Source of the DNA: a virus
Strand: one strand, 5' to 3'
DNA: 29,697 nt
IMG/VR virus record: IMGVR_UViG_3300034072_002202
Coordinates: 1-29,697 of that record
The notes below the pieces were generated by a model. The model was given only the letters and a program-made list of their open reading frames with translations, was not told the origin of the DNA and made no database searches. Below, in pieces: positions 3,380 through 25,818 of the stretch. A program made the position numbers and the translations under genes. Numbering within the stretch: position 1 is the first letter of the stretch; each line of letters begins with the position of its first letter.

Positions 3380-3428
3380 TTATGTCTCCTCAGTGGTGTG
3401 GTGGTTGACCGCCAGTTGGTGCTGGCGG
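3380..3428 (-). promoter_or_regulatory. Leader module: CCAA-loop hairpin + CACCAC + GAGGAGAC
   Basis: On the minus strand, directly after the stop of the zinc-knuckle gene, CCGCCAG and CTGGCGG pair (7 bp) around the loop CACCAA. ACCACCACACC and the ribosome site GAGGAGAC follow, then the ATG at 3379. No T run follows the hairpin, so it is unlike a terminator. Confidence 0.7.
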
Positions 3429-3599
3429 TTATTTTAAGCGGATAGCGCCTGGCAACTTCCCGCCGCCAGCGTGCTTAGTGCATGCCTCGTAGTTGTGGTC
3501 TCGACCTCCGCAATACGTGCAGCGGAGATTGCCTGCAGTGCCATTTGACGGGCAGCAAGTGTAAGGGTGGCCGTTCTTTCCACAGTATGCGCAACGCAT
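3429..3599 (-). CDS. Double CCHC zinc-knuckle protein
   Basis: 56 residues. The ATG at 3599 overlaps the previous stop as TAATG and follows GGAG. Two exact CX2CX4HX4C knuckles are visible: C3-C6-H11-C16 and C27-C30-H35-C40, the spacing of retroviral nucleocapsid and eukaryotic CCHC knuckles. Such knuckles bind single-stranded nucleic acid. The basic C-terminus fits that, but a nucleic-acid role here is inference. A longer upstream start (3659) would add a tail that overlaps the previous gene and is not supported. Confidence 0.72.
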   Translation of the reverse strand: MRCAYCGKNGHPYTCCPSNGTAGNLRCTYCGGRDHNYEACTKHAGGGKLPGAIRLK

Positions 3600-3811
3600 T
3601 AGACGCTCCAGCCCATGAACTTCCTGAGCACGTCGCCCATGCGGGCTGCCACGCCGCAATGCTCCACCGTCCTGCCATACGTGGTCATTTGTTCGCCGTG
3701 CGGCTCCGGGCTGTCGTGGCAGCGGCGGGCATAGATAACGACTTGATCGTAACCGTAGTCGTCGGCGATACGCTTCGCTGCACTGATGGGAATGTCACGC
3801 ATCGAGATCAT
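3599..3811 (-). CDS. Conserved phage hypothetical protein
   Basis: 70 residues. The ATG at 3811 overlaps the previous stop as ATGA; the stop overlaps the next start as TAATG. The sequence MRDIPISAAKRIADDYGYDQVVIYARR, then TTYG and EHCGVAAR, is a pattern common to rhizobial and other proteobacterial phages, always small and uncharacterised. The two His and one Cys near residues 32, 51 and 52 could bind metal, but no known site is recognised. Confidence 0.75.
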   Translation of the reverse strand: MISMRDIPISAAKRIADDYGYDQVVIYARRCHDSPEPHGEQMTTYGRTVEHCGVAARMGDVLRKFMGWSV

Positions 3812-5043
3812 GCCACCGCCCTCGCCGGCTCATTGTCATTCGCGGCATCCATCATCGCCACGCGAACGCGCGAAACTTCGCCGTACTCCTTGTGGTAGCT
3901 GATCGACTGCATCGACCGGCCAGACAGGAAGCCCGAGCCAAAGTGCCACGCATCCTGCGGCGTTGGCGTCTGATGCGATTCTGAAATCACCCCGCCGCCC
4001 TCAGAGGCGAACTTACTCGAGTGATGGATGTGGAATCCGTGGACGAACCGGTGACGAGTTGCGCCCCAGTCTTCGGCGCGACGGTGCGCCATGATGCTCG
4101 CCATGTCCTTGAGCTTGACCGTGTGGCCATGCGTGGCACCGATCATCACCTTTCCGAAACGGAACCAGAAGAACAGCGATGGATCTACATCGACGGTCAC
4201 TCTCGGCTCGTTGCGATACCAGGCAAGCAGGAAGTATGCGACGGCAACAGACGCGTGCTCATCGTGGTTGCCAGGCAAGATGCGGACGGTGACGTGCCCA
4301 TGTCGCTTGAGGCTGGCGTCGATCGAGCGAACGACAAGCCGGCATGCGGTCATCAGCACCTTTTGATACCTGCCGTCGACCTGCAGAACGTTGCCCGAGC
4401 GTGCCGTCTTGTTCTCGTTGTTGTCTGAGTGGAGCAAGTCACCGCCACCCAAGACAATCGCATTGGCAGACGGCGGAGTGCGCGCAATCAGGTCTTCAAT
4501 TGCCGAGCCAATAACGTTCTCCGCAATCTTTAAGTCCCAATTTGTGTCTGTCTCGCGATGCCACGAGAAGAGTCCGATATGCCAGTCGGCCAGTGGCGTC
4601 AGTGTCAGCAGGTCATCGTAAACCTGCGCTGGAGCGGAGATTGGCTCGGCAGGCGCAACGTCATGGAAGGCTTCTTTGAGGATGGCAGCGATGTCTACAG
4701 GCGAATGCTCAACCGCCGTCTTCTGCCACTGCTGGATAACGCGCCCCTCAGCATCGACGAGCGCAGACACGCCTTTGACTACGTGACCGGTCGGCACTGC
4801 GAACTTCTCGCCCCGCTCCTGCGTCTGCTGGATGAACGTGCCGCTCGGTGTGTTGCTGATCTTGCTAATGCGGAAGCCTGGAAGGACAGGTTCCGTGCCA
4901 AGAAGGCCAGCTTCGGCGGCGCGTTTGATGCTCTCGGCAAGAGCGGACTTGCCGATGCCAAGGGCGGCGGCTGCTTTAACCAACGTGCCATGCTCTCGGT
5001 AGGCGTCGGCTCTTCGACGCAGTTCTTCTATGGGTAGAGGCAT
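3808..5043 (-). CDS. wHTH-calcineurin-like metallophosphoesterase
   Basis: 411 residues. The N-terminus (about 10-45, YREHGTLVKAAAALGIGKSALAE) is a homeodomain-like helix-turn-helix. A linker follows, then a metallophosphoesterase core from about 148: DWHIG (Asp153/His155), GGGDLLHSD (199-207), GNHDEH (258-263), THGH (304-307) and HGFHIHH (335-341). These are the metal ligands of the calcineurin/Mre11 fold, so a nuclease or phosphodiesterase acting on DNA is plausible. Phage operons often hold this fusion. AANDN sits near the C-terminus. The start is preceded by a leader module with GAGGAGAC. Confidence 0.85.
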   Translation of the reverse strand: MPLPIEELRRRADAYREHGTLVKAAAALGIGKSALAESIKRAAEAGLLGTEPVLPGFRISKISNTPSGTFIQQTQERGEKFAVPTGHVVKGVSALVDAEGRVIQQWQKTAVEHSPVDIAAILKEAFHDVAPAEPISAPAQVYDDLLTLTPLADWHIGLFSWHRETDTNWDLKIAENVIGSAIEDLIARTPPSANAIVLGGGDLLHSDNNENKTARSGNVLQVDGRYQKVLMTACRLVVRSIDASLKRHGHVTVRILPGNHDEHASVAVAYFLLAWYRNEPRVTVDVDPSLFFWFRFGKVMIGATHGHTVKLKDMASIMAHRRAEDWGATRHRFVHGFHIHHSSKFASEGGGVISESHQTPTPQDAWHFGSGFLSGRSMQSISYHKEYGEVSRVRVAMMDAANDNEPARAVA

Positions 5044-5088
5044 GCAGTCTCCTCGATGTGGTGGTGAAGGCCGCTTGGCGGGCGGCCT
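5044..5088 (-). promoter_or_regulatory. Leader module: CCAA-loop hairpin + CACCACCAC + GAGGAGAC
   Basis: Minus strand: AGGCCGC and GCGGCCT pair (7 bp) around CCGCCAA, followed by TCACCACCACATC and GAGGAGAC, then the ATG at 5043. It lies just after the protease stop at 5095. The stem sequence differs entirely from the copy at 3409-3428 while loop and tail are kept. Confidence 0.72.
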
Positions 5089-5094
5089 GATTAT

Positions 5095-5754
5095 TTACTT
5101 ACGCGCCAACAACTCACAGACCGCAGTCGAAGGCACGACATAGCCGTAGCCAACCAACGAGCCAGAGAAGCCAATAGGCGCGGCCATGACGCCGACGGTA
5201 ATGCCGATCAGGTCGCCGTTGTCCGCGTAGACGGGTCCGCCAGATTGGCCCATCACAGTTGTGATGTCGGTCACATAGACCGATTTCCACGGACCTGTTT
5301 CTCGTGGCTCGCCGGCGATCTTGCCGTAGGCGGCAACGAATTCGATTTTCAGGGGATTGCCGTGAGCAACGATAGGATCTCCTACCTTCACAGAGTGGCA
5401 GGCCAGTTTTGCGACGCCGAGACCGTCCGACGACGTGCGCAGCAGTGCAATGTCATTGGCCCTGTTGACCCAGAGGACATCGGCCTTGCGAAGAGCGCCG
5501 CCTTTAGCCTTTAGCTGGACTTCTTTCGCATCGCCGACGACGTGCGCAGCAGTGACGATAAAGCCGTCTCCGATATGAACGCCGGAACCGTGGCCGTCGT
5601 TGACGACGATCTTAACGGTGGCCGTTTCGGTTGCTGCGGGTGTTGGTGGAGGAAGTAGCGCATAGGCGGCCGCAGAGGTCGCGGCGATGACGAGAAATAA
5701 TGCAACGAGGAATGCGCGTGGCGACACAATGCGCCGCAGGAATCGTCTGAGCAT
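5095..5754 (-). CDS. Membrane-anchored trypsin-like serine protease
   Basis: 219 residues from the ATG at 5754 (GAGGGG upstream). After a basic N-terminus, residues about 13-34 form one membrane anchor, so the protease domain should face the periplasm. The catalytic triad is visible in chymotrypsin order: His71 in TAAHVVG, Asp101 in NDIALLR and Ser171 in GQSGGPV. There is no PDZ domain. It is the first gene of the leftward 13-gene operon, under a promoter that shares its operator with the phage early region. Role unknown; processing of envelope or phage proteins is possible. Confidence 0.85.
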   Translation of the reverse strand: MLRRFLRRIVSPRAFLVALFLVIAATSAAAYALLPPPTPAATETATVKIVVNDGHGSGVHIGDGFIVTAAHVVGDAKEVQLKAKGGALRKADVLWVNRANDIALLRTSSDGLGVAKLACHSVKVGDPIVAHGNPLKIEFVAAYGKIAGEPRETGPWKSVYVTDITTVMGQSGGPVYADNGDLIGITVGVMAAPIGFSGSLVGYGYVVPSTAVCELLARK

Positions 5755-5813
5755 GATTATCCCCTCTTTCTGGCGAACGTGCGCCAATGTGGTGGTCCCG
5801 GTTGGTTGCCGAG
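5755..5813 (-). promoter_or_regulatory. 5' leader with CCAA-loop hairpin and ACCACCACA
   Basis: Minus strand after the promoter at 5835-5863: CTCGG and CCGGG pair (5 bp, one G-U) around CAACCAA, then ACCACCACA. A second small stem TGGCG/CGCCA follows, then GAGGGGATA before the ATG at 5754. The ribosome site is a variant of the GAGGAGA form found in the other copies. Confidence 0.55.
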
Positions 5814-5834
5814 CGGCTGGTGACGCCGATAATC

Positions 5835-5863
5835 AAGCTATACTGTTTTTACAAATTTGTCAA
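5835..5863 (-). promoter_or_regulatory. Leftward promoter with ACAAATTTGT operator
   Basis: On the minus strand TTGACA (5863-5858), a 17-nt spacer and TAGCTT (5840-5835). The palindrome ACAAATTTGT (5851-5860) overlaps the -35 box. A 23-nt block around it is identical to that at 23749-23771, the leftward early promoter, which points to one repressor controlling both operons. Confidence 0.7.
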
Positions 5864-5889
5864 GATTTGCTGCCACTACAGAATCCCGA

Positions 5890-5919
5890 TTGACTCTTTG
5901 GAGTATGAGAACATAATAA
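5890..5919 (+). promoter_or_regulatory. Rightward promoter, probably giving leaderless mRNA
   Basis: TTGACT (5890-5895), 18-nt spacer and TAATAA (5914-5919). Transcription would begin at about 5926-5927, which is the ATG of the next gene, and no ribosome site lies upstream of it. It diverges from the leftward promoter at 5835-5863. Confidence 0.55.
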
Positions 5920-5926
5920 GAACATC

Positions 5927-6130
5927 ATGTCTCACAAGATGCAAACACAAGCAATGAAACAGTACAGATTTCAGGCTGGGCGCTGGATCGTAACAGTGCG
6001 CGCGCCGACCTTTGCCCACGCTAAAATTGCCGCCGCAGCAAAGCTGGATCAGCGGGCAGCGAAGCTTTTTGCTAGTCCGCCTGCATGCGGCTGGAAGCTT
6101 GAACGATTAGCAGACACCACCAGAGGATAG
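5927..6130 (+). CDS. Small hypothetical phage protein
   Basis: 67 residues. There is no ribosome site before the ATG at 5927, but the promoter at 5890-5919 would start the mRNA at this codon, so leaderless translation is likely. A second in-frame ATG at 5954 (MKQYRFQAGRW) is the alternative. The protein has a strand-rich start (YRFQAGRWIVTVRAPTFAHAK) and an Ala-rich helix. No family is recognised. It heads a rightward run of five small genes. Confidence 0.6.
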   Translation: MSHKMQTQAMKQYRFQAGRWIVTVRAPTFAHAKIAAAAKLDQRAAKLFASPPACGWKLERLADTTRG

Positions 6131-6134
6131 TCCT

Positions 6135-6335
6135 TTGCGCCCACATCAGAGAGAACCGCAAGCCGATCCGGTTGACCACATCATTGCATGGCACGACGGC
6201 GACAGCCGTGCCGCGATTGAGACGCTGATGGAAGACATCCAGCACTTGCGGCTACAGCTTGCGCTGGCGACCGCAGCGATGGGAACCGGTTTCACGAGAG
6301 GATGGAAGCCGGACGCCGACAGAAATGCCAGGTGA
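6135..6335 (+). CDS. Small hypothetical phage protein
   Basis: 66 residues from TTG at 6135, 4 nt after the previous stop, with CACCACCAGAGGATA upstream (a relaxed form of the CACCAC/GAGGAGA leader). The sequence VDHIIAWHDGDSRAAIETLMEDIQHL then a second helix and SRGWKPD-like tail (TRGWKPDADR) resembles small rhizobial phage proteins with no known function. It is helical and soluble. The stop overlaps the next start by 11 nt. Confidence 0.6.
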   Translation: MRPHQREPQADPVDHIIAWHDGDSRAAIETLMEDIQHLRLQLALATAAMGTGFTRGWKPDADRNAR

Positions 6336-6801
6336 AGGAGCTTATCTGCTTTCGGACCACGGCGGCGAGCCTGTAGGCGTTATATGCGAGGAATGCGAGC
6401 TCCTGAAATTCATAAGCTCGGGCGAGCTCATGATTGAGTTTGGCGACCTATCGATGCCGACGATGCTGCGGCGCATTTCTCAAGAGGTGATCAAATGCGC
6501 GAAGCCAATGGAGGGCTATTCCGGCCGATGCATGCTTCATTACCACGCGCGATCCGGCAGCCAGATCGAGGCATTGAAACAAGCGAAGCCGCCGGCCGTT
6601 AGAGTAAAGGAAATTCGAAACTGGGAGATTGTCGTTGCCAAGTGCAACTACTGCGGCCACGTTTCAAATATCCCGCATTGGCAACTGAACCGCGCGGCGA
6701 AGACGGACACTACGGTGGACGAAATTGCCAAGCGACTGAAATGCAAACGATGCAGCGTAAAGGGTGACGTGAAAATCACCATAGCCAAGATGCCGAGGTG
6801 A
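6325..6801 (+). CDS. Zinc-ribbon hypothetical protein
   Basis: 158 residues from the ATG at 6325. A CEEC pair lies near residue 20. A four-Cys ribbon is clear in the C-terminal half: CNYCGH (about 108-113) paired with CKRC (about 144-147). The region between the two halves includes IPHWQL and a helix. The layout suggests a zinc-binding nucleic-acid or protein-interaction module. The ribosome site is weak and overlaps the gene before. No specific family is recognised. Confidence 0.65.
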   Translation: MPGEGAYLLSDHGGEPVGVICEECELLKFISSGELMIEFGDLSMPTMLRRISQEVIKCAKPMEGYSGRCMLHYHARSGSQIEALKQAKPPAVRVKEIRNWEIVVAKCNYCGHVSNIPHWQLNRAAKTDTTVDEIAKRLKCKRCSVKGDVKITIAKMPR

Positions 6802-6803
6802 GC

Positions 6804-6968
6804 ATGAGCGACCAGACCAACAAGGCCGGCGACGGCATCCACGAGAATCACTGGTGCGAGCATCCGGGCTGTCGTAAATGGGGAGGCTTCGGCTTTAGCC
6901 GAAACAAGGTTGAAAAGTCATCCTGGCATTGCTGGGAGCATTATCCATTCAAGGAGTGGCCCCGATGA
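6804..6968 (+). CDS. Small Cys/His-rich protein
   Basis: 54 residues, ATG 3 nt after the previous stop; its TGA overlaps the next ATG as ATGA. The pattern HWCEHPGCRKWGGFGFSR ... WHCWEHY is a recurring rhizobial small-protein type with two Cys-His clusters, so one bound zinc is likely. The coupling on both sides supports translation. Function unknown. Confidence 0.65.
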   Translation: MSDQTNKAGDGIHENHWCEHPGCRKWGGFGFSRNKVEKSSWHCWEHYPFKEWPR

Positions 6969-7183
6969 TCACCCGCATCACTCGACAGAAAGACGCAAAA
7001 CAGCGGCTGTCGATGGCTCTACGTCAACTGAATGACGCTGTCAGGGACCTCCACAAGAGCGGCCTCGACGTGGAAATCATGGAGCTGACGATGTTAACGT
7101 CGCGCGGAGATATGAAGCAGTTCGATATCCGGACGTTTAGGGCAGAAGGCGCGCCGCCGGATTTGAAGGTGGTAGGAGACTGA
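6965..7183 (+). CDS. Small hypothetical protein
   Basis: 72 residues. The ATG at 6965 overlaps the previous stop as ATGA, with AGGAG 13 nt upstream. The first half is a basic amphipathic helix (RQKDAKQRLSMALRQLNDAVRDLHKSG), the second a short beta segment (FDIRTFRAEG). No motif is recognised. It is the last gene of the rightward run; a strong terminator follows about 90 nt later. Confidence 0.6.
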   Translation: MITRITRQKDAKQRLSMALRQLNDAVRDLHKSGLDVEIMELTMLTSRGDMKQFDIRTFRAEGAPPDLKVVGD

Positions 7184-7302: not shown

Positions 7303-7311
7303 GCAGAATTT

Positions 7312-8873: not shown

Positions 8874-9243
8874 GAGGACAGCCTACCGACGAACCGTTTA
8901 CAAAATGTTCGATGGATGAGCGGTGATTCTTATTGCGAAACGGCACAGACAGATTGCCACCGATTCCCTCAGGAACCTTCCCAGCGAGACCAGACTTCCG
9001 CCGAACTGCTTGAATTTCCTAATGAGAGCTTAACGTTTTCAACAGCGCGAACGAGATTCTGTTACTTAATGGACACACCTTCTGCGCTTCGTCTCCATTC
9101 AATCACACTAAAACAGCGAATCCGGATTGCGGAATTGGGCGACTTTCTGTCTTTTGTGAATCAACGCAGGGCCAATGAGGCGGGGACAACCGGTTTCGGG
9201 GCTTCTGCGTTGGTGGATAAAAACTTTGACTGGAGGTCAACCC
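8874..9243. other. Divergent intergenic region between ligase and porin
   Basis: About 370 bp with no convincing gene. It must hold the promoters of the divergent ligase and porin genes. A GGAGG site (GACTGGAGGTC) lies 7 nt before the porin ATG. I cannot identify reliable -35/-10 boxes or repeats here. Confidence 0.5.
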
Positions 9244-10356
9244 ATGAACATCAAGAGCCTTCTGATCGGCTCCGCTGCGGCTCTCGCAGCAGTATCCGGC
9301 GCACAGGCCGCTGACGCAATCGTCGCTGCTGAGCCCGAGCCCCTGGAATACGTTCGCGTTTGCGACGCTTTCGGCACCGGCTTCTTCTACATCCCCGGCA
9401 CCGAAACCTGCCTGAAGTTCGGCGGTTACGTTCGTTTCCAGACCGACTTCGGTCGTAACGAATCCGGCTCGTCTGACTGGGATTCCTTCACCCGCGCTCA
9501 GTTCGAAGTTGACACCCGCACCGACACCGAGCTCGGCGCTCTGCGTGGCTTCATCGGCTTCCGCGGCAACGCTGACGCTGGCAGCGCCTTCGGTGACGGC
9601 AACAACGACACCGGCTCCGGTGTGCACGTCGACCAGGCGTTCATCGAAATCGGCGGCCTGAAGGCCGGTAAGTTCTACAGCTGGTGGGACGATGGCCTCT
9701 CTGGCGAAGCTGACGTTCTCTCCACGAACGCTCTCTTCAACTCGATCCGTTACACCTACGACGCAGGCTCCTTCTGGGCTGGCATCTCGGTTGACGAACT
9801 CGAAGGCACCTGGGATCAGTTCGCTACGATCACCGGTCCGGCTGTTGGCGGTGTGTTCCCGGTTTCGTATGAAGACGACAACAACGTTGGTATCGCTCTC
9901 GGCCTCGGTGCCAAGCTCGGCGCTGCTTCCCTGCAGCTCATCGGCGGCTACGACACCGACCAGGAAGAAGGCGCAATCCGCCTGATCGCTACGGCCGACC
10001 TCGGCCCGGGCACGCTCGGTCTTGCTGGTGTTTGGGCTTCCGGCGCAAACGCTTACTACGCTGAATCTGAGTGGGCAGTTGCTGCTGAATACGCCATCAA
10101 GGCAACTGATCGTCTGACGATCACCCCCGGCGCTCAGTACTTCGGCAACGTTGCTGACACCATCTCGGTTGCTGGCATCGGCTCGTCCATCATCACCAAC
10201 GACTGGTCTGACCGTGACGCATGGCAGGCAGGCGTAACGCTTGACTACAAGATCACGGAAGGTCTCTCCACGAAGATCGCCGTCAACTACTACGATGAAG
10301 ACGATCGCGACCAGGAAGAAGTCAACGGCTTCGTTCGCCTTCAGCGCTCGTTCTAA
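9244..10356 (+). CDS. Outer-membrane porin (Porin_2/RopA-Omp2b type)
   Basis: 370 residues, start at the ATG 9244 with GGAGG upstream. A signal peptide (MNIKSLLIGSAAALAAVSGAQA) precedes the mature start. The conserved Rhizobiales porin opening follows: VRVCDAFGTGFFYIPGTETC, a Cys pair, then GGYVRFQ. The C-terminus ends in FVRLQRSF with the terminal Phe typical of outer-membrane barrels. Codon use is strongly biased (CTC, GCT, GGC, TTC), as for highly expressed host genes and unlike the phage genes around it. A strong terminator follows. As prophage cargo it could change surface permeability or phage receptors. E. coli phage PA-2 carries a porin in the same way. Confidence 0.95.
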   Translation: MNIKSLLIGSAAALAAVSGAQAADAIVAAEPEPLEYVRVCDAFGTGFFYIPGTETCLKFGGYVRFQTDFGRNESGSSDWDSFTRAQFEVDTRTDTELGALRGFIGFRGNADAGSAFGDGNNDTGSGVHVDQAFIEIGGLKAGKFYSWWDDGLSGEADVLSTNALFNSIRYTYDAGSFWAGISVDELEGTWDQFATITGPAVGGVFPVSYEDDNNVGIALGLGAKLGAASLQLIGGYDTDQEEGAIRLIATADLGPGTLGLAGVWASGANAYYAESEWAVAAEYAIKATDRLTITPGAQYFGNVADTISVAGIGSSIITNDWSDRDAWQAGVTLDYKITEGLSTKIAVNYYDEDDRDQEEVNGFVRLQRSF

Positions 10357-16179: not shown

Positions 16180-16622
16180 CTGTCGGCGAAGTATTGGTTG
16201 CTGTCGGTGACCTCTTGCGGATTATCGTCTCCGCCTAACGCAACGTCCACCTTGTCGCGAGATCCAAGCATGGCACCGGCCGGCATCGTTGCCTCGTACT
16301 CCTCGACGCCACCGTCGATGGTGAGACGGTGCGCTTTCTCCGTCTGTGTGCCATCGCTGAACCGCAGCTTTCCGATACGTACCACCTGCCCCGCTTCGTT
16401 GCGCTCAACCTCGCCTGTTGCCACGTTCTTCATGATCTCGGCGACCGATGGGGTGACCAGCCTTTTGCGATCGTGCTTCAGGTCTTCGATTTCGTCCGGG
16501 TTGTTGTCGTTGGCTGGAACGACAGACCAATTTGTCTGTAGCGGCTCGGGCTGATGGTCCGGCTCGGTGGCGAAGCGTCGCACCGCCGCCAACTGCTCTG
16601 CAAGTGATCCATGTCTGGCCAT
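16180..16622 (-). pseudogene. 3'-truncated phage gene fused out of frame to terminase
   Basis: The gene starts at ATG 16622 behind ACACCACAGGGGAGACG (leader without hairpin). About 148 residues look genuine: VPANDNNPDEIED near the start, then PSVAEIMKN, IGKLRFSDG and MPAGAMLGSRDKVD, ending in SNQYFADS. The frame then runs 40 residues through terminase DNA in the wrong frame (basic, Cys/Arg-rich) to 16038. The abrupt change near 16175 marks a deletion joint. The family is a rhizobial phage protein of unknown function preceding terminase. Confidence 0.65.
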
Positions 16623-16655
16623 ATCGTCTCCCCTGTGGTGTTACTGCTGCTGCGC

Positions 16656-17129
16656 TTACGTTGGGTGATTGTCGTTGTCGGCCAGCCATCCTTTGACCAG
16701 CGCCACGACCTTGCTGGCCGCTTCTGCTGTGGACGTGAACCGCACCACCTCGACCGGATGGCCGAGCCGCGCCAGCGACGCATGCCGCTCAACCTGAGCC
16801 GGCGACAGTCTGCCTTTGCCGACCTTGTTTTCGATCATCCGCAGCCGGCCGCCCTTGAGGTAGATCCGCAGATCAGCTTCGCCCGGCGCCATGCCGGTCG
16901 CGATCGCGTCGGCTTGGGCACGTGGCCCGCGCTTGGCGCTGTTCATGTCGCCAGCAAGCAGGAACTGACGTCCGTACTCCGGCAGCGACCGGAGTGCTCG
17001 AACCTGGGCCGCCTGCCCTTCGCTTTCCTTGATGGGTGCATCGGCTACCTTCACCGTGCCGTTGTCCGAAGTACGGATGACGACGCGCTTGCCATTGATG
17101 CGGGTGGTTTGGCTTGTGGCTCTGCCCAT
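16656..17129 (-). CDS. VRR-NUC-type nuclease
   Basis: 157 residues from the ATG at 17129, preceded by ACACCACACGAGGAGACG. The core GEADLRIYLKGGRLRMIENKVGKGRLSPAQVERHASLARLGHPVEVVR has the VRR-NUC order: acidic pair in GEADL, E.K in MIENKVGKG, and Q..H. These are small restriction-like endonucleases in phages, often near terminase or replication genes. The C-terminus ends in LADNDNHPT. A longer GTG start adds residues not supported by a ribosome site. Confidence 0.82.
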   Translation of the reverse strand: MGRATSQTTRINGKRVVIRTSDNGTVKVADAPIKESEGQAAQVRALRSLPEYGRQFLLAGDMNSAKRGPRAQADAIATGMAPGEADLRIYLKGGRLRMIENKVGKGRLSPAQVERHASLARLGHPVEVVRFTSTAEAASKVVALVKGWLADNDNHPT

Positions 17130-17292
17130 GGGCGTCTCCTCGTGTGGTGTTGTCGTGGTGGCGACACACATACTTTCCGAGAGAGGAGCGAAAACGGTTA
17201 GTGGATTTGGAGAAATATTTTTGGGTGAGCATCAGGTTGCAATCGGACTGCCCTTCTGCCCGGTGCACGTTGCCCGAATAAAAAACCTCAAT

Positions 17293-17617: not shown

Positions 17618-18925
17618 ATTAGTACATCGACTGACTTTGCGGAGTTTTTCCAGAACATCTCTATCAACAACTCCGATACCATTTCACTACGGTATGGCGA
17701 GGTTACACGAGCGCTAAACCTTGAATTCAGGGGCACCGATAATCGTGTGGCCAACAATCTCCAAGTCGGCTCGTATGGTAGACGCACCGCCATAAGGGGC
17801 ATATCTGATCTGGATATGCTCTATATCATGCCGGCTAGCGCTTGGGATGATTACAAGGATGGAGGCCAGTACAAGTTGCTTAGACGGGCCGCTGACGCAA
17901 TCATAAGCCGCTATCCGCGCACTACGGTCTATCCGGACACTTTGGTAGTGGTTGTTGAGTACACTAATTTCAAAATTGAAGTCCAGCCAGTCTTCAATGA
18001 TGGCAATGGACACTTCCTCTACCCTTATACACGGAACGGTGGGACCTGGCGGACAACGAAACCACGTCCGGAGCTTCAGGCAACCTCAGATGTCGATGAA
18101 GAGAAAAATGGCAACCTGAGGCGGCTAGCAAAACTCGCTAGAGCTTGGAAGAACAAGCACGGCGTCGCTATGGGGGGTCTGCTAATTGATACCCTTGCAT
18201 ACAATTACTTGAGAACGACGGACGAATTTGACGAAACGCATTTTGGTGGATGCGGAAATATGATCGCTGGATTTCTTGAATTTCTGAGCAACCAACAGGA
18301 CCAGGAAAGGTATTCTGCGCTGGGCAGCGGTCAGCATGTGAAAGTCCATAAGAAGTTTCAGAGGAAAGCGGCGAAGGCCCTTGCGATTGCGCAAAATGCT
18401 CTGTCTTCCGGTGAGAGTGCGTCCGCGAATAACTACTGGCGAGCTCTCCTCGGAAGGGCCTTCCCCGTCGCGAAATCTGTTGTTGATGAAAGCACTCTCG
18501 CCAAAGCCGGTTTTGTCAATCCGTCTCGAAACGAGCAGCACATCGAAGACCTATTCCCCGTCGACATACGTAACGCGATCCGTATCGAGTGTGAAGTTTC
18601 TCAAACTGGATTCAGGAGCTTTTTGATGAGAGCGAGCCGGGCAACGCGCCTTAGCAGGTTTATTCAAAAGGAGAAAAATCTCAGATTTTTTATAAATTCA
18701 CACAACATAAAGGGCGATTTCAAAATCTACTGGAAGGTGCTGAATCGGGGTTCTGAAGCTATCCGTAGGGATATGGTGCGGGGGCAGATTGAGCTCGGCA
18801 CACAAACTAAAGTTGAGCACTCATCGTTTCGTGGTGAGCATGTCGTCGACTGCTACGCAGTACAAAACGGCGTCGTCATCGCAAAGGACCGCATACACGT
18901 TCCGATTACTGAAGAGAACCATTGA
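17618..18925 (+). CDS. CD-NTase (cGAS/DncV-like cyclase) with AGS-C sensor domain, CBASS-like
   Basis: About 435 residues if translation starts at ATT 17618 (GGGAG 7 nt upstream). GTG 17747 is the first standard start but would remove 43 residues that fit the family (ISLRYGEVTRALNLEFR...NNL). The catalytic core is GSYGRRTAI (51-59) with SDLDM (Asp64, Asp66) and the third acidic residue in IEVQPVF (Glu121). A helical domain follows. The C-terminal about 80 residues (FKIYWKVLNRGSEAIRRDM...HFRGEHVVDCYAV-type pattern) match the AGS-C sensor. On phage infection such enzymes make cyclic oligonucleotides that switch on an effector, here the SLATT protein next door. AT-rich, unlike its neighbours. 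Confidence 0.87.
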   Translation: MSTSTDFAEFFQNISINNSDTISLRYGEVTRALNLEFRGTDNRVANNLQVGSYGRRTAIRGISDLDMLYIMPASAWDDYKDGGQYKLLRRAADAIISRYPRTTVYPDTLVVVVEYTNFKIEVQPVFNDGNGHFLYPYTRNGGTWRTTKPRPELQATSDVDEEKNGNLRRLAKLARAWKNKHGVAMGGLLIDTLAYNYLRTTDEFDETHFGGCGNMIAGFLEFLSNQQDQERYSALGSGQHVKVHKKFQRKAAKALAIAQNALSSGESASANNYWRALLGRAFPVAKSVVDESTLAKAGFVNPSRNEQHIEDLFPVDIRNAIRIECEVSQTGFRSFLMRASRATRLSRFIQKEKNLRFFINSHNIKGDFKIYWKVLNRGSEAIRRDMVRGQIELGTQTKVEHSSFRGEHVVDCYAVQNGVVIAKDRIHVPITEENH

Positions 18926-18926
18926 A

Positions 18927-19520
18927 ATGGGCAAGGATGAACTACTTAAAACGATCGCAGAAACTGGATACAACATCGGCTTCGGAGCGAGAAAGACATT
19001 TGCGACGCTAGATATCGCTGAGAAGGGGCCGGGATGGATTGGGTTAATATCGTTCGCGGTCGGAACGTTCGCGCTTTACATAGACGAATTGTCGGCAAAA
19101 TTGCCATCGGCGATATTGTTGATCGCTGGTGTTGCATCGCTGTATATGGGCTTTTATCGCGCAAGCGACTACGAGCCTACCGCCAAACAGCTTCTAGGAC
19201 TGCAGAACAAACTTAGAGACCTGTACCGTTCCGTTAAGGCCGGTGCGGATCTGGAGCAGTCACATTCGGAATTTAAGCAAATCGAGAAGGAATTTTACTC
19301 CATCACCGTGAGTAAGCAGATATTTTTGAGCGATTGGTATGCGCATTACAAATTCTTTGCTCAGACTCAAACAGGATGGATGGATGAGCAGCTAAAATTC
19401 GAGTTTTGGAAAGATATGATTCCTCTTTCCGCAAAGATTATTATCGTTCTGTCGGTACTGGGCTCGATGGCCGCCTTAGGATTATACTTTATGAGAAATA
19501 GCTTTACTCTAATTTGCTAG
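18927..19520 (+). CDS. SLATT-domain membrane effector
   Basis: 197 residues, ATG one base after the CD-NTase stop. Two hydrophobic segments near residues 36-53 (GLISFAVGTFALYIDEL) and 57-73 (LPSAILLIAGVASLYMGFY) are followed by a cytoplasmic helical region, and a third segment near 165-190 (AKIIIVLSVLGSMAALGLYFM). This is the SLATT layout, a family predicted to form pores and often paired with SMODS nucleotidyltransferases. Expected action: membrane damage when the cyclic nucleotide is made. The low GC and the strict pairing mark a transferred two-gene defence unit. Confidence 0.8.
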   Translation: MGKDELLKTIAETGYNIGFGARKTFATLDIAEKGPGWIGLISFAVGTFALYIDELSAKLPSAILLIAGVASLYMGFYRASDYEPTAKQLLGLQNKLRDLYRSVKAGADLEQSHSEFKQIEKEFYSITVSKQIFLSDWYAHYKFFAQTQTGWMDEQLKFEFWKDMIPLSAKIIIVLSVLGSMAALGLYFMRNSFTLIC

Positions 19521-19641
19521 ACAAAAAAGGCCGGTGCATCGCTGCCCCAGCCTTCCTGTAGCTATCGCCTCTGCCAGTACATCCGTGGTCAGTGCGTAAG
19601 CTGTCTGGCCACATAACTCTCGGCGTCGCATTTGGTTCCCG

Positions 19642-19836
19642 TCATGCGCCCGGCCAATCGTTGGCCGGCTCATCTATCTGCTTCGGATCGTCTGAGGGAT
19701 CGGGATCTTCCTCATACGAAGTCATCAACTCATCAAGAGCTTGCTTCATTGCGGCAAGGACATCTGGGGCCGTGTGGCCTTTCTGGACAAACCGATCGGC
19801 GAGCTGCTCGAGTTCAATACGGATCTCATCCTGCAT
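19642..19836 (-). CDS. Small acidic rhizobial protein
   Basis: 64 residues, ATG 19836 with GAGG 6 nt upstream. It is helical at first (IRIELEQLADRFVQKG...VLAAMKQALDELMTSYEE), then acidic and Pro-rich, ending PANDWPGA. It resembles small uncharacterised rhizobial proteins. It lies downstream of 19845-20024 on the same strand and probably shares its transcript. Confidence 0.6.
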   Translation of the reverse strand: MQDEIRIELEQLADRFVQKGHTAPDVLAAMKQALDELMTSYEEDPDPSDDPKQIDEPANDWPGA

Positions 19837-21036: not shown

Positions 21037-21039
21037 GTT

Positions 21040-21349: not shown

Positions 21350-21443
21350 CGTGCGTCACCCAAGCTGCGACTGCGGCGATGACAGCGCTGAGCGGCACAA
21401 GCGCGATGAGCGTCGCGCCAAGGATTGCGAAAGCATCCTTCAT
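21309..21443 (-). CDS. Small membrane protein, C-terminus altered by a deletion joint
   Basis: 44 residues from ATG 21443, behind a leader module with GAGGAGAC. Residues 4-29 (AFAILGATLIALVPLSAVIAAVAAW) are a membrane span; THVSYRIWQ is the usual end of this phage type. The last few residues (GLPRGG) come from the Sak4 sequence in another frame. The joint lies around 21330-21350. Function unknown. Confidence 0.6.
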   Translation of the reverse strand: MKDAFAILGATLIALVPLSAVIAAVAAWVTHVSYRIWQGLPRGG

Positions 21444-21494
21444 AGTTGTCTCCTCAATGATGTGGTGAAGTGCGGCTGGTTGGTGGCCAGCCGC
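21444..21494 (-). promoter_or_regulatory. Leader module: CCAA-loop hairpin + CACCAC + GAGGAGAC
   Basis: Minus strand: GCGGCTGG and CCAGCCGC pair (8 bp, perfect) around CCACCAA, then ACTTCACCACATCATT and GAGGAGAC before the ATG at 21443. This is the strongest stem in the set. Confidence 0.75.
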
Positions 21495-21503
21495 TAGCGC
21501 TGG

Positions 21504-22607
21504 TTAGGCTGCCTGCTCGAAGGCCTCGACGGCCCGCTTTGCTGACAAGGGGTCAAGACCCGCAACGGCGCGCAACTCCTTGATCGCATCGATCTTGAGG
21601 CCCAGCGCAGCCATGTTCTGCCACTTGTGACCATAGACCGGCGCGGCTTCTTCGTGGGTCGTGTTCAGCGTGAACACGCCGAACTGCTTGCCTTTGTATT
21701 TCGCGGCAAGGCGTTTGGCTTCCTTCTCGGCTGCGACGGTGGACGCGTGTACGTGCGGCGTCGATGACGGCTTTGGCTGGCCGTTTTCGATGAGGGCGAC
21801 GATGGCGGTGGTGGGTGCCGCAAGCTCGAAGAACTCGGGTAGCCAGCCGTTCTCGGTTGATCCCGCATCATCGAACTTGACCTTCACGCTCTCATATTTG
21901 CGGCCAAAGTGATCGGCAGAGACGACATATTCCTTTCCGGCAGTGAACTGCCCTGGATAGCTCTTCAGGCACTTCACCCGATCACCGACCTTGAACCTCG
22001 GCTGCGCGTTGTCGTTGCTCGGTTTCGCCACGGGCTCGTCGATCCATTCGGCGATGATGTCGTTATCTTTCAGACTCAACTTATCGTCTCGGCTCGACGA
22101 TCGACCGTCGTCGGACCAAACAGCACTGGCATAATTGCCTGTGCTGCCGAATGTTGCAATGTTCCCAGAAATGAAGGCAGGCCCGACCTTTCGGCCATCG
22201 CGCGTCTTGTAGAACTTGCCTGCCTCGATCTTGAGGGCGGCGGGCTGTTCTGGAGTGGTGGCCGTCGTGATGGGCTCGATGTCGCGCAGAACGAACCCTC
22301 CTTCCTCACCAGAGCATTTTCCCGATCTTAGGGTAACCAATGTGATCCCGTGCGCGTACTCGGCAGTTACGTCGCCCTCGCCTTCCCATCCCGGATAATT
22401 GACCTTCACCCGCTCGCCGACGCGCGGCTGCCAAGGTTCGAATGCGCCATGCATCGCTGCAGTTGATCCAGCGATTACAACGATATGGCCATGTTTAGAC
22501 ACTTCCAGCACCTTGTAGATGCGATCGACCACGCCGTATTGCTCGGGCCAGTCGCTTGGCTGTACACGGCGCACCCAGTCACCCACCTTAAATCTCTGCG
22601 CACCCAT
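21504..22607 (-). CDS. Modular protein: repeated SH3/KOW-like domains plus L7/L12-like C-terminus
   Basis: 367 residues from ATG 22607 (GGAG 7 nt upstream, TGATG overlap with the gene before). Three or more small barrels are visible, each opening with FKVGD.V.. or RVGERVKV: RFKVGDWVRRV at the start, RVGERVKVNYPGW near 61, RFKVGDRVKCLKSYPG near 205. SNDNAQP lies between modules. The last 30 residues (LKIDAIKELRAVAGLDPLSAKRAVEAF) resemble the C-terminal domain of ribosomal protein L7/L12. Function unknown. Early-operon position suggests host interaction, perhaps with translation factors. Confidence 0.7.
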   Translation of the reverse strand: MGAQRFKVGDWVRRVQPSDWPEQYGVVDRIYKVLEVSKHGHIVVIAGSTAAMHGAFEPWQPRVGERVKVNYPGWEGEGDVTAEYAHGITLVTLRSGKCSGEEGGFVLRDIEPITTATTPEQPAALKIEAGKFYKTRDGRKVGPAFISGNIATFGSTGNYASAVWSDDGRSSSRDDKLSLKDNDIIAEWIDEPVAKPSNDNAQPRFKVGDRVKCLKSYPGQFTAGKEYVVSADHFGRKYESVKVKFDDAGSTENGWLPEFFELAAPTTAIVALIENGQPKPSSTPHVHASTVAAEKEAKRLAAKYKGKQFGVFTLNTTHEEAAPVYGHKWQNMAALGLKIDAIKELRAVAGLDPLSAKRAVEAFEQAA

Positions 22608-22888
22608 CACGCTGCTCCTTCCGTTGTTGTTTCGGCGGTCATGGCGCGCCGTTGTGTGAAGTCGACCTTGACGACGTTGGTGTCGTCATCCTCCTTTGCC
22701 GGCGGCTCGCCGTCCGGATCGTGCTCGATCTCGAATCCGTGCCACCAGATCGTCGAGGCGCCGTCGGCAAGGCGCACCTGGTACTCGCTGCCCCAGTTGC
22801 GATCGCCGATGACAACGCCAGTTAGATGCGGGTTTTGCCGGTTGCGGACCGGATCGCCGAAATTGAAGAACTCGCAGTCGCAGGTCAT
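22607..22888 (-). CDS. Small hypothetical phage protein, SH3-like
   Basis: 93 residues. ATG 22888 overlaps the previous stop as ATGA. MTCDCEFFNFGDPVRNRQNPHLTGVVIGDRNWGSEYQVRLADG looks like a small barrel domain with two Cys at the start. The C-terminal third is acidic and disordered (DPDGEPPAKEDDD). It sits before the larger SH3-like protein with a stop-start overlap. No function known. Confidence 0.68.
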   Translation of the reverse strand: MTCDCEFFNFGDPVRNRQNPHLTGVVIGDRNWGSEYQVRLADGASTIWWHGFEIEHDPDGEPPAKEDDDTNVVKVDFTQRRAMTAETTTEGAA

Positions 22889-23235
22889 GCCGCCACCCGC
22901 TCACTACGCAGCGCGTAGTCGTTGACCGCCTGCCCCGCCGTCAGATCTTCAGCATTGTCGTTTGCGGCGGCAAGAACGCGCGGGAGCGAAACCGGCATAA
23001 GGCCGGAAAGCGTGGAGCAACCGCCGTTGTGCGGCGCCAGGTGCGTAGTGCGGTCGGGATTGTTGTCATTGGCTGGGATGAATGCGCGCTGCTTGTGTAA
23101 GCCGTATGTGCGCCGAAGCCGCTGGTATGCTGCCATTGGCTTGACGTTGTATCTGGCGGCAATATCTGCGACGCTCTCACCGTTTTCACGGCGCGCGTGC
23201 ATATCCGCCAGCATAGTGCTGGTGATAAGCGTCAT
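22885..23235 (-). CDS. Homeodomain-like HTH protein with two ANDN peptides
   Basis: 116 residues. ATG 23235 follows a leader module. Residues about 8-43 form a helix-turn-helix of the HTH_38/homeodomain type (ARRENGESVADIAARYNVKPMAAYQRLRR). The rest is low complexity and contains IPANDNNPDR and LAAANDNAED. It is the second gene of the leftward early operon, so a transcriptional role in the early programme is plausible. No closer family is recognised. Confidence 0.7.
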   Translation of the reverse strand: MTLITSTMLADMHARRENGESVADIAARYNVKPMAAYQRLRRTYGLHKQRAFIPANDNNPDRTTHLAPHNGGCSTLSGLMPVSLPRVLAAANDNAEDLTAGQAVNDYALRSERVAA

Positions 23236-23275
23236 GTCGTCTCCTCTGGGTGGTGGTGAACGGTTGGTAGCCGTT
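23236..23275 (-). promoter_or_regulatory. Leader module: CCAA-loop hairpin + CACCACCACC + GAGGAGAC
   Basis: Minus strand, right after the lipoprotein stop: AACGG and CCGTT pair (5 bp) around CTACCAA, then CACCACCACCCA and GAGGAGAC before the ATG at 23235. Confidence 0.68.
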
Positions 23276-23276
23276 A

Positions 23277-23681
23277 TTAATTTGCGGTGATTTCCTTACC
23301 GTCGCCGCGGAAGTTGACGTCTGGAATGATGGACTGAGGCTTGAAGGTGACGCGGTAGTGGTACGCGCTAACCGACTTGCCTTCCAACTGCTCGGCGAAG
23401 AACGTGACGTTGTCGGAAAGACCGAGAAAGTGCTTCTTGTACTGTCCGGGCCCGGTCTTGCAGGTAACGTCAAGCTTACGTTCGCCGACAGAGATGCTGC
23501 ACAAGCCTTCGATGGTCAGCATGTAAGTGTCGGTGATACCGTTGTAGAAAATGATGCGGCGGCTGACTTCAAAATTATCGGCTGCCTTCGACAGGTTCTG
23601 CGAGGCAATCTGCGCGTCGTCGGAGCAAGCCGTTAGCGCAACAGAAGCCGCTAGCGCCATTGCGATTGCAATGCGGTTCAT
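23277..23681 (-). CDS. Phage beta-sandwich lipoprotein
   Basis: 134 residues, ATG 23681 behind CACCACCCAGAGGAGAC. The signal ends in a lipobox (ASVALTAC, Cys19). The mature part, LSKAADNFEVSRRIIFYNGITDTYMLTIEG, then VTCKTGPGQYKKHFLGLSDNVT and YHYRVTFKPQSIIPDVNFRG, belongs to a conserved phage lipoprotein type encoded at the start of early operons. Its role is not established; superinfection exclusion is one idea. It is the first gene of the leftward early operon. Confidence 0.78.
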   Translation of the reverse strand: MNRIAIAMALAASVALTACSDDAQIASQNLSKAADNFEVSRRIIFYNGITDTYMLTIEGLCSISVGERKLDVTCKTGPGQYKKHFLGLSDNVTFFAEQLEGKSVSAYHYRVTFKPQSIIPDVNFRGDGKEITAN

Positions 23682-23736
23682 TGTCGTCTCCTCTGGGTGG
23701 TGGCCGCCTTGTGGTTGACAAAGCAGCAGGGTTATG

Positions 23737-23765
23737 AAACTAAACTATTTTTACAAATTTGTCAA
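23737..23765 (-). promoter_or_regulatory. Leftward early promoter with ACAAATTTGT operator
   Basis: Minus strand TTGACA (23765-23760), 17-nt spacer, TAGTTT (23742-23737). ACAAATTTGT at 23753-23762 overlaps the -35 box. The operator also lies 24 nt before the divergent regulator gene at 23786. The predicted 5' leader contains a weaker hairpin CUUUGU/ACAAGG with loop CAACC. Confidence 0.72.
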
Positions 23766-23785
23766 GATTTCACGAAAGTGGATGC

Positions 23786-24388
23786 ATGCCTGAAGTTAAG
23801 TCGCGCCTCCTCCAGTCGATACTGAAAGAACAGAAGCGGAGAGCCGTAAAAGATCGCGCTGTCTACGAAGAATTAGGCGTGCCCCAGCAGACCTTCAGCA
23901 CCTGGAAAGCTGGCGTCATACCGAGACCAAGACAATTCCCGGCGATTGCCGCCTTCCTCGGCGTCTCCGAAGAAGAAGTGGCGGAGATGGCTCGCGAGGC
24001 GGCCGAAACCGCCCCGTCCGTCACGCCGATTACGGTCGCCCGCACCTACGGCAAGATATCTGACCGCAAAGCTGGCAAATTCAAATTCGAACCAATCAAC
24101 GACGGCCGCAAACGTATTCCTGAAGGCAGGTACGCGATCATCATCGACACGAAAGTGATGGAGCCAGTCTTCCACGTCGGCGTAAAGGCGTGGCTCGACC
24201 CTTCCCGCTGGCCCGCCGCCGGTGACGACGTTCTGGCACATTCGGGCGGTTTCGCCTGGATTGGGCGGTTCGAAGGAATGAGCAACGGCGCCGTTCAGCT
24301 TAGCCGCTACGACGGATCGCAGCTTGAAGTCAAAAACGTTGAAGCTGTTCATGTCATCGTCCTTTCGGAGCGAGTGGTTGCGGCATAG
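23786..24388 (+). CDS. HTH regulator with S24-like domain lacking the catalytic serine
   Basis: 200 residues from ATG 23786; a TTG at 23759 would lie inside the operator. The N-terminus (about 20-62, AVYEELGVPQQTFSTWKAGVIPRP) is a helix-turn-helix. The C-terminal half has the S24/LexA-like fold pattern (YAIIIDT...MEPVF...AAGDDVL), but the GDSMEP site reads TKVMEP, with Val124 in place of the nucleophilic Ser. Self-cleavage is therefore unlikely. Its position divergent to the early operon suggests a Cro- or repressor-type protein acting on ACAAATTTGT. Confidence 0.8.
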   Translation: MPEVKSRLLQSILKEQKRRAVKDRAVYEELGVPQQTFSTWKAGVIPRPRQFPAIAAFLGVSEEEVAEMAREAAETAPSVTPITVARTYGKISDRKAGKFKFEPINDGRKRIPEGRYAIIIDTKVMEPVFHVGVKAWLDPSRWPAAGDDVLAHSGGFAWIGRFEGMSNGAVQLSRYDGSQLEVKNVEAVHVIVLSERVVAA

Positions 24389-24412
24389 CGAGGTGGTGGC
24401 TCGTAATTCCGC

Positions 24413-24441
24413 TTGACAATTCCTACAAATTTGTGTAGGAG
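24413..24441 (+). promoter_or_regulatory. Rightward promoter with ACAAATTTGT operator
   Basis: TTGACA (24413-24418), 17-nt spacer, TAGGAG (24436-24441). ACAAATTTGT (24425-24434) fills the spacer, inside a larger inverted repeat TCCTACA/TGTAGGA (24421-24440). The -10 box is weak, but the layout equals the two leftward ACAAATTTGT promoters. It would transcribe the candidate small RNA. Confidence 0.55.
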
Positions 24442-24446
24442 ATTGG

Positions 24447-24580
24447 TTGTCCGCTGTGGTGGCGGATATGGAATACGCGCTTTGATCCCGCCTTACGGCG
24501 AAGGTCTCCTCGGCGTGTTAGTACGGAGAAGGGGCGGAGTTACGGGTGGTGCCGGCTCATTACGCCCCTTTTCGTTTTTT
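24447..24580 (+). ncRNA. Candidate phage small RNA with anti-leader sequences
   Basis: A promoter (24413-24441) and an intrinsic terminator (AAGGGGCG 24529-24536 with CGCCCCTT 24563-24570, then TTCGTTTTTT) delimit about 130 nt with no credible ORF. The RNA contains GTCTCCTC (24504-24511), the exact complement of the GAGGAGAC ribosome site shared by many genes here, and TGTGGTGG (24455-24462), complementary to their CCACCACA. TTGGTTG (24443-24449), the complement of the CAACCAA loops, lies at the predicted start and may or may not be transcribed. It is antisense to the end of 24540-24662. Confidence 0.45.
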
Positions 24581-24662
24581 GCTGCATGCACGACAACGCC
24601 GGCAGAGCTTCATGCTCCACCGGCGCTAATTTTTCGAAGTCATTGTTTGCGGTCTCTCTCAT
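24540..24662 (-). CDS. Very small protein behind a leader module
   Basis: 40 residues, ATG 24662 with GGGGAGACG. MRETANNDFEKLAPVEHEALPALSC and a basic tail (KTKRGVMSRHHP). No family is recognised. Support comes from the leader with its hairpin and ribosome site. Its 3' end overlaps the candidate small RNA and its terminator on the other strand. Confidence 0.45.
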   Translation of the reverse strand: MRETANNDFEKLAPVEHEALPALSCMQQKTKRGVMSRHHP

Positions 24663-24717
24663 AGTCGTCTCCCCTTCTGGCATTAGTGGTTTTGTTATCG
24701 CCAGTTGGTTGCTGGCG
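24663..24717 (-). promoter_or_regulatory. Leader module: CCAA-loop hairpin, long spacer, GGGGAGAC
   Basis: Minus strand, 1 nt after the previous stop: CGCCAG and CTGGCG pair (6 bp) around CAACCAA. ATAACAAAACCACTAATG and GGGGAGAC follow before the ATG at 24662. The spacer is longer than in other copies and CACCAC is reduced to ACCAC. Confidence 0.6.
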
Positions 24718-24718
24718 T

Positions 24719-24856
24719 TTAAGGCGGCCCGGTCACTGGCCGCCATCTTCTTCTGCGGTCGGGAGCTTCATGCTCCCATCTTCTTCTCGCCGTCATGGCG
24801 CTCATGCCGATCAGCGCTTGGGTCGTCGATCGTCTTCTTTCGCAATCCTTAAACAT
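24719..24856 (-). CDS. Possible small Arg-rich protein
   Basis: 45 residues, ATG 24856. MFKDCERRRSTTQALIGMSA followed by a basic Arg/Trp-rich end. The ribosome site is poor (AAAGGGAATGCGC). Its stop lies 1 nt before a leader hairpin, as in other gene junctions here, and a leftward promoter lies about 80 nt upstream. A second overlapping short ORF is possible, so the call is uncertain. Confidence 0.35.
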   Translation of the reverse strand: MFKDCERRRSTTQALIGMSAMTARRRWEHEAPDRRRRWRPVTGPP

Positions 24857-24935
24857 GCGCATTCCCTTTCATGCTGCAGGTTCGTCTTGGGGTCTGTTGC
24901 CCTGTCGGCTTCTTGTTTGGCCGCTGTTGATTTTG

Positions 24936-24976
24936 GTTCTACCGTTTTACCGGTTTAGTGTCAACTCTAAACCGGT
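24936..24976 (-). promoter_or_regulatory. Leftward promoter with CI-type operator inverted repeat
   Basis: Minus strand TTGACA (24964-24959), 17-nt spacer, TAGAAC (24941-24936). Perfect 10-bp arms ACCGGTTTAG (24949-24958) and CTAAACCGGT (24967-24976) flank the -35 box. A further ACCGTTTTAC copy precedes them. The same half site recurs at the rightward promoter 25740-25768 and just before the CI gene. Confidence 0.65.
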
Positions 24977-25012
24977 TTTATTTTTTGATATTTTTCCGTT
25001 ATACCGGTGCGC

Positions 25013-25720
25013 ATGGCAAAGTTGAGCGACATCATAAGGTCTAAGCGCAAGGAAATGGGCTTAACGCAGAAGGCGTTCGGCAACCTTTTTGGTGCGCAAC
25101 AGACAACCGTCTCCGATTGGGAGAAAGGTAAGATATCTATGATGCGCAACTGGCAGAAGCTTGCCGGGTCTCTTGGTCTGCGCGAATCGGAGTTTCTCGA
25201 CCTTATGGCTGAGGCGACGACCGAGTCGGAAAAGACCGAGCGCATGATTCCCGCGTTGCGTCAGGCAACTGCCCCTATCATTAATACCGGTAGTATCATT
25301 GCCGCTCCTAAACCGCCGTCCGGGGAGCGTGACGTGCCTGTTCTAGGCAGGTCGAAGGGAGGGTCGGACGGTGAGTTTGAGTTCAACGGGCAGATCATGG
25401 GCTGGGAATGGAGGCCGCCTCACCTGGCGGGCGTCGCCGAGGCATATGCATCTTATGTAGACGGCGAGAGCATGTATCCGCGTTACAAGCCAGGCGAGAC
25501 GGTATGGACCAATCCGCCAAAGCCAATCGCGCGCGGCGATGACGTTATCGTGCAGCTGGCACCGAACGAAGAGGACGGCGTTCCTCGCGGCTTCATCAAA
25601 GAGTTTGTACGATGGGAGCCAAGCTTTTTGGTGGTGTGCCAGTTCAACCCCCCGATGGAAATCAAATACCCGCGCGACGACGTCGTCTCGATCCACAAAA
25701 TCGACTACGCGCAGAAATAA
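25013..25720 (+). CDS. CI-like phage repressor (XRE HTH + S24 peptidase)
   Basis: 235 residues from ATG 25013 (a GTG at 25007 is the alternative). HTH_XRE spans about 5-60 (LTQKAFGNLFGAQQTTVSDWEKGK). A linker follows, then an S24 domain with the nucleophile Ser153 in DGESMYPRY and the general-base Lys196 in GFIKEFVRW, so RecA-stimulated self-cleavage is likely. There is no ribosome site: a TATACC-like box at 25000-25005 and a TACCGGT half operator lie directly before the start, suggesting a leaderless, autoregulated mRNA as for lambda cI. Operators of the ACCGGTTT type flank it on both sides. Confidence 0.88.
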   Translation: MAKLSDIIRSKRKEMGLTQKAFGNLFGAQQTTVSDWEKGKISMMRNWQKLAGSLGLRESEFLDLMAEATTESEKTERMIPALRQATAPIINTGSIIAAPKPPSGERDVPVLGRSKGGSDGEFEFNGQIMGWEWRPPHLAGVAEAYASYVDGESMYPRYKPGETVWTNPPKPIARGDDVIVQLAPNEEDGVPRGFIKEFVRWEPSFLVVCQFNPPMEIKYPRDDVVSIHKIDYAQK

Positions 25721-25768
25721 CGGTTTACCGTTTTAACGGTTGACGACGCACCGGTATCGTTCTATATC
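25719..25768 (+). promoter_or_regulatory. Rightward early promoter (PR-like) with CI-type operators
   Basis: TTGACG (25740-25745), 17-nt spacer, TATATC (25763-25768). ACCGGTA lies in the spacer and AACGG-TTTA-CCGTT (25719-25732) just upstream. It would drive the 25819-29203 operon including xis and int. Transcription would start at about 25775, immediately before the leader hairpin. Confidence 0.68.
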
Positions 25769-25779
25769 TCCTCTTGTAC

Positions 25780-25818
25780 CCAGCAAACCAAGCTGGTCAC
25801 CACAAGAGGAGATACACT
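25780..25818 (+). promoter_or_regulatory. 5' leader module: CCAA-loop hairpin + CACCAC + GAGGAGA
   Basis: CCAGC and GCTGG pair (5 bp) around AAACCAA, then TCACCACAA and GAGGAGA before the ATG at 25819. Here the module forms the 5' end of an mRNA on the opposite strand from the other copies, so it cannot be a terminator of an upstream gene. Confidence 0.7.

Follow-up and report, generated by a model that had tools for sequence, protein, structure and literature searches.

A hairpin leader with a constrained ACC loop upstream of translation starts in 16-3-like temperate phages

Leader copies in a 16-3-related viral record

The window, by which we mean the whole 29,697-nucleotide stretch of the viral record IMGVR_UViG_3300034072_002202, carries a tRNA-Arg at its left edge and genes related to those of Rhizobium phage 16-3, Sinorhizobium phage AP-16-3 and Agrobacterium phage Rivra. 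This 29.7-kb record is probably a piece of a prophage. A CBASS-like defence pair lies at 17747-19520 (+), with an oligonucleotide cyclase (PADLOC E 9e-151) as its first gene and a 2TM effector (E 2e-72) as its second, and adjoining it at 19520-19658 (-) is a match to the alphaproteobacterial ar35 sRNA (RF02346), whose 43.8 bits fall short of the gathering score, 45. A 393-aa ORF at 9175-10356 (+) resembles an outer-membrane porin by reading alone, and may point to host sequence or be cargo of an unusual kind.

Seven hairpins had been proposed in a preliminary description as parts of a repeated RNA leader, in which different stems carry one loop type and a CACCAC stretch and a GAGGAGA ribosome site follow. 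All seven were found again at the same positions, on the sense strand of the gene that follows. Searching with filters off, a covariance model trained on the sliding-clamp leaders of related phages alone (see below) returned 10 sites in the window at E<=0.02, including all seven hairpins and a further copy at 17127.

Most copies serve genes on the minus strand. The leader at 3377..3443 (-) has a hairpin at 3409-3428 with the loop CACCAA, followed by ACCACCACACCAC and GAGGAGA (model E 3.1e-6). The product of the gene behind it (3164-3379, -) has 71 aa and contains a Tad2-like domain of the Thoeris anti-defence kind (PF11195, E 4.8e-11). The exonuclease/metallophosphatase gene at 3808-5043 is preceded by a leader at 5041..5108 (-; hairpin 5068-5088, loop CCGCCAA, then CACCACCAC and GAGGAGA; E 6.6e-7), and the trypsin-like protease gene at 5095-5754 by a weak one at 5752..5830 (-; hairpin 5797-5813, loop CAACCAA, then ACCACCAC; E 0.02 with filters off), which sits downstream of a PL-like promoter/operator. 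The hairpin of this weak copy was upheld, with the amendments that its stem has one T.G pair and that its Shine-Dalgarno (SD) sequence is AGAGGGGA. An operator-like dyad, ACAAATTTGT, is repeated at 5837-5870, 23742-23775 and 24424-24450 inside TTGACA-type promoter-like sequence, and similar dyads of the form TTGACAAATTTGTCAA precede starts in two relatives (G009 and G010).

The strongest leader of all (21441..21513, -; E 1.7e-14) precedes a 44-codon ORF from 21443 and combines an 8-bp hairpin at 21472-21494, with the loop CCACCAA, with CACCAC and GAGGAGA. An HTH-like gene at 22885-23235, the first in a candidate immediate-early operon, has its leader at 23233..23286 (-; hairpin 23259-23275, loop CTACCAA, then CACCACCAC and GAGGAGA; E 1.3e-6). 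The copy at 24660..24742 (-; E 0.0024), in front of a 38-aa ORF at 24540-24656, is divergent. Its hairpin at 24699-24717 with the loop CAACCAA stood up to inspection, but the CACCAC and GAGGAGA ascribed to it did not, their places being taken by AACCAC and GGGGAGA. An ORF of about 40 codons in G014, G017 and G026 is preceded by a hairpin like this one. The seventh hairpin (25780-25796, loop AAACCAA, then CACCAC and GAGGAGA) belongs to the leader at 25777..25821 (+; E 0.0013) of the gene at 25822-26187, and lies on the opposite strand to the other hairpins, close to a putative mRNA 5' end. It is surrounded by a perfect 11-bp inverted repeat, TCTCCTCTTGT...ACAAGAGGAGA, at 25767-25812 which, if transcribed whole, could mask the SD.

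Four further starts had been described as having the linear part of the leader without the hairpin. This holds for the gene at 23277-23681 (phrog_478, RDF-like), where CACCAC-GAGGAGA is present in the sequence of 23679..23741 (-), and for the gene at 26613-26825 (26572..26615, +), where ACCACCACC...CACCAC-GAGGAGA scores E 8.3e-8 from its sequence part only. The start at 16622 (16620..16670, -) has ACACCAC-GGGGAGA without a clear hairpin and reaches only E 0.63. The fourth, at 17129, turned out to have a hairpin after all: the leader at 17127..17179 (-; E 4.6e-7) of the gene at 16656-17132 (phrog_824) carries TGTCG-CCACCA-CGACA at 17150-17166 ahead of ACACCAC and GAGGAGA, and this hairpin is kept as GTGTCG-CCACCA-CGACAC in two relatives.

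The preliminary description had also held that the hairpins are not just terminators, and we agree: no U-run follows the listed leader hairpins, and in the RNA sense their 3' flank is ACCAC-rich and runs into the SD.

Stem covariation and loop constancy

The leaders of the phage sliding-clamp gene were gathered by protein homology, without use of the hairpin, yielding 63 distinct leaders. Across these 63 phages a stem of at least 8 bp is present in 76% of leaders compared with 0.8% of shuffles, with a mean folding z of -3.9. A 43-sequence alignment scores 0.518 for covariation, whereas shuffling gives 0.168 and slid pairings reach no more than 0.143, and 8 of the 9 pairs of the stem have changes on both sides. 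The MAFFT alignment A4 shifts some stems by one column, and its figure of 81% paired cells is therefore an underestimate. Covariation is also seen across genes (0.437 vs 0.099, with 90% paired cells, in an alignment fitted to the structure). The suggestion made from seven copies, that the RNA structure is under selection and its loop conserved, is thus strongly supported, by the orthologous clamp site as well as by the comparison between genes. Two variants were seen among the clamp leaders. In 16-3, whose clamp leader lies at 42559-42645, and some relatives (L626, L633, L687, L690 and L700) a second small hairpin, CGCGGGACAACCCGC, lies between ACCAC and the SD. In four others (L658, L691, L692 and L703, from G043, G057, G058 and G062) the hairpin is GGCGGGC-UUCG-GCCCGCC, a UUCG tetraloop replacing ACCA, and these records have few or no other leader matches.

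A scan of the window for hairpins with a Watson-Crick stem of at least 5 bp and a loop of 5-8 nt placed CCAA top of all 256 tetramers as the 3' quartet of the loop (7 hairpins vs about 1.0 in shuffles), and 6 of these 7 lie directly upstream of an SD and ATG. The pattern CACCAC-N2-10-GAGGAGA-N3-8-ATG occurs 8 times in the window, compared with 0.01 expected. Pattern scans of viral contigs, in which the loop, ACCAC and SD were fixed and the stem was not, recovered 144 distinct copies with at least 72 different stems. Among stems of at least 5 bp in the scanned loci, CCAA closes the loop in 113 copies and any other quartet in 13 or fewer. Since the loop formed part of these queries, 19 phage records were also examined with no loop specified: their 1025 SD starts are preceded by 186 hairpins, of which 42 have loops ending in CCAA, 12 in ACCA and 6 in the next most frequent quartet. 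The reversed core AACC gave 0 matches before starts. The enrichment of the loop is neither chance nor an artefact of the queries. The constancy originally claimed for an NN(A/G)CCAA loop stands, while its definition needs revision: the part constant throughout the family is ACC(A/G), mostly as CNACCAA, CTCACCA or CCACCA.

Distribution and placement at gene starts

Applied to 1.33 Mb, the covariance model trained on clamp leaders alone gave about 158 matches at E<=0.01; they belong to many genes, and the control phages Rivra, X2_26 and RDJL1 have none. Among 50 records in which clamp or primase relatives occur, about 40 have 6-17 matches each. A leader-poor group has 0-2 matches (G040, G057, G058, G062-G064 and G066-G068), and G043, a 10.5-kb fragment, has 1. 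The leader is absent from the Sinorhizobium phage X2_26 and the Agrobacterium phage Rivra. Sinorhizobium americanum is infected both by X2_25, which has the leader, and by X2_26, which does not, so the host does not dictate its presence. Host genes were considered as users of the element and rejected, as nearly all matches in eight host genomes (150 candidates scored per genome) group in prophage-sized clusters. The leader is confined to one phage lineage, the 16-3-like temperate phages of Rhizobiaceae and Brucellaceae. Over 32 records, CCAC before the SD and ACCA hairpins covary (rho 0.77, the related phages not being independent points).

Placement follows gene starts closely. In three annotated phages, model matches occur at 32 of the 63 junctions wider than 15 nt and at 0 of the 113 narrower ones (p 7e-18), and they end at annotated start codons, a position that strongly supports the tie to translation starts already noticed in the window. 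The hairpin often begins 0-10 nt past the upstream stop codon, and most ACCA hairpins lie 8-21 nt ahead of the SD, a distance that would put them just outside the footprint of the initiating ribosome. Starts with CACCAC and no hairpin are common. Genes with the leader include replication, nuclease, methylase, regulator and small unknown genes. A preference for non-structural over structural genes is only suggestive (CCAC 121/231 vs 4/18; hairpin 42/231 vs 1/18). What these phages share is a conserved RNA hairpin with a constrained ACC loop, placed strictly at starts that follow a gap.

Interpretation and comparison with known systems

We favour, with a probability of roughly 0.55, a cis-acting RNA leader of 16-3-like phages whose ACCA loop and ACCAC stretch are read by a common factor, probably phage-encoded, that alters translation initiation. 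The mRNA hairpin, mostly GC-rich and free in stem sequence, would display an ACC(A/G) loop, usually CNACCAA, ahead of an unstructured ACCAC stretch and the GAGGAGA SD, and would serve genes unable to rely on overlap with an upstream neighbour. One factor might recognise both the ACCA of the loop and the linear ACCAC, and could activate initiation on leader mRNAs or repress it in a timed manner. At the least, the leader probably marks its messages for special handling at the translation start. As in the preliminary description, recognition of the loop by a protein or RNA is inferred. Such a reader is favoured by the turnover of stems around an unchanging loop, and by the joint gain and loss of the hairpin and the CCAC leader between phages. 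It is weakened by the few relatives with a UUCG tetraloop in the clamp hairpin, and no reader gene follows the leader perfectly.

Two proteins of the candidate immediate-early operon, which comprises the HTH gene, p073 and p074 and is nearly universal among leader phages, are candidates for this role. The p073 homologue (22607..22888, -; 93 aa) has a core predicted with high confidence to be a five-stranded SH3/KOW-like barrel; its fold matches are weak, the best being NusG (E 0.007), and a sequence search against solved structures gave nothing. The p074 homologue (21504..22610, -; 368 aa, phrog_4317), a candidate effector, carries the SH3-like motif FKVGDRV repeatedly and ends in a part that resembles the C terminus of L7/L12, for which the Pfam match is above cut-off in X2_25 and below it in the window protein. 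Leader-poor relatives (G040, G057, G058, G062 and G066) carry p074-like genes, which weakens p074 as sole reader, and distant p073-like genes in G040, G043 and G063 weaken p073 as a perfect marker of the leader. These KOW/SH3-like early proteins are put forward as candidates only. That p073 and/or p074 form a phage-encoded translation-specificity system, reading the ACCA hairpin and ACCAC tag on early mRNAs and steering host ribosomes to or from phage early genes, is a more specific proposal that we consider doubtful.

The main rival, possible if on the unlikely side, is a structural element without any reader. Here the hairpin would shield the SD from upstream sequence, keep ribosomes from slipping or reading on past the preceding stop codon, or stabilise the mRNA; ACCAC would be a plain unstructured spacer, and the loop would be conserved through its own stability or common descent. 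Hairpins lying just beyond an upstream stop, the restriction of leaders to junctions with a gap and the frequency of hairpin-less CACCAC leaders all agree with this, as does the UUCG clamp hairpin of the four relatives, in which the hairpin can evidently serve without ACCA. However, an ACC core held constant over at least 72 differing stem sequences is hard to reconcile with it, the ACC motif recurs in the linear part and the two features switch together, and leader-poor relatives with a similar clamp gene manage without a leader at other genes.

An element acting on transcription, be it nut-like antitermination or pausing, a site at which the RNA is processed or a dyad in the DNA that a phage regulator would bind, appears improbable. 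Phages do use boxB hairpins, and a KOW/NusG-like candidate protein is present, both of which count in its favour. So does the overlap of ESAS, the elements discussed below, with putative promoters in Adephagia (PMC11373665). Nevertheless, placement tracks start codons gene by gene rather than promoters, the direction is fixed relative to the gene, the next feature is the SD, and the free stem sequence is unsuited to a DNA operator. We consider it very improbable that the leader is a base-pairing target for a phage or host RNA with UUGGUGG/GUGGU. Both the loop and the linear stretch contain ACCA/CACC and one complementary RNA could use both, but the density of TTGGTGG/GTGGTGG does not cleanly separate leader phages from the rest, and Rfam gave only the ar35-like sRNA, below threshold. 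A search by the same density for an antisense partner with TTGGTGG gave no clear candidate.

The leader is an RNA family absent from Rfam. Dozens of temperate phages that infect rhizobia, agrobacteria and relatives of Brucella have it, the classical phage 16-3 among them; its covariation is unusually clean and its copies within a genome are numerous. It offers a useful mark of true gene starts and of 16-3-like prophages. Within the open-access literature, the AP-16-3 paper makes no mention of a hairpin or leader. The cis-regulatory leader families of Rfam 15 likewise have a small conserved 5' leader structure; no family matches any copy tested, no leader in the window or in L626 was matched to E<=1, and in the window only the tRNA passes its gathering score.

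Among phage RNA hairpins, those of the lambda nut/boxB type are also small, with a fixed loop and variable stem. The present leader differs in being found one per gene start and tied to the SD. A lambda-type nut site is characterised by a place in the operon leader downstream of a promoter and by boxA; most copies here lie between genes within operons. A functional model for a possible reader is the T4 RegA regulon, in which a repressor of early mRNAs acts on the translation initiation regions of about 30 messages, through A+U-rich, unstructured sites that overlap or adjoin the AUG (PMC3014915). In contrast, the leaders here are structured, C/A-rich and upstream of the SD, and do not constitute RegA-type sites.

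The closest analogue is SAS/ESAS of cluster K mycobacteriophages, likewise a short repeat just before many start codons in one temperate-phage lineage, with a suspected role in translation. An inverted repeat lies upstream in about half of cases. If a phage factor does read the present leader, it would amount to a translation code spanning the genome of a temperate phage, and would serve as a model for SAS/ESAS, which are unexplained. The leader does not belong to that family: by inspection, the SAS consensus GGGATAGGAGCCC (PMC12699233) was not found before starts with up to 2 mismatches, and the conserved part here is ACCAC...GAGGAGA. Moreover, ESAS are 17-bp inverted repeats with conserved arms, which in their authors' view are poorly supported as mRNA hairpins, whereas the stems of the leader vary freely and covary and only the loop is fixed.
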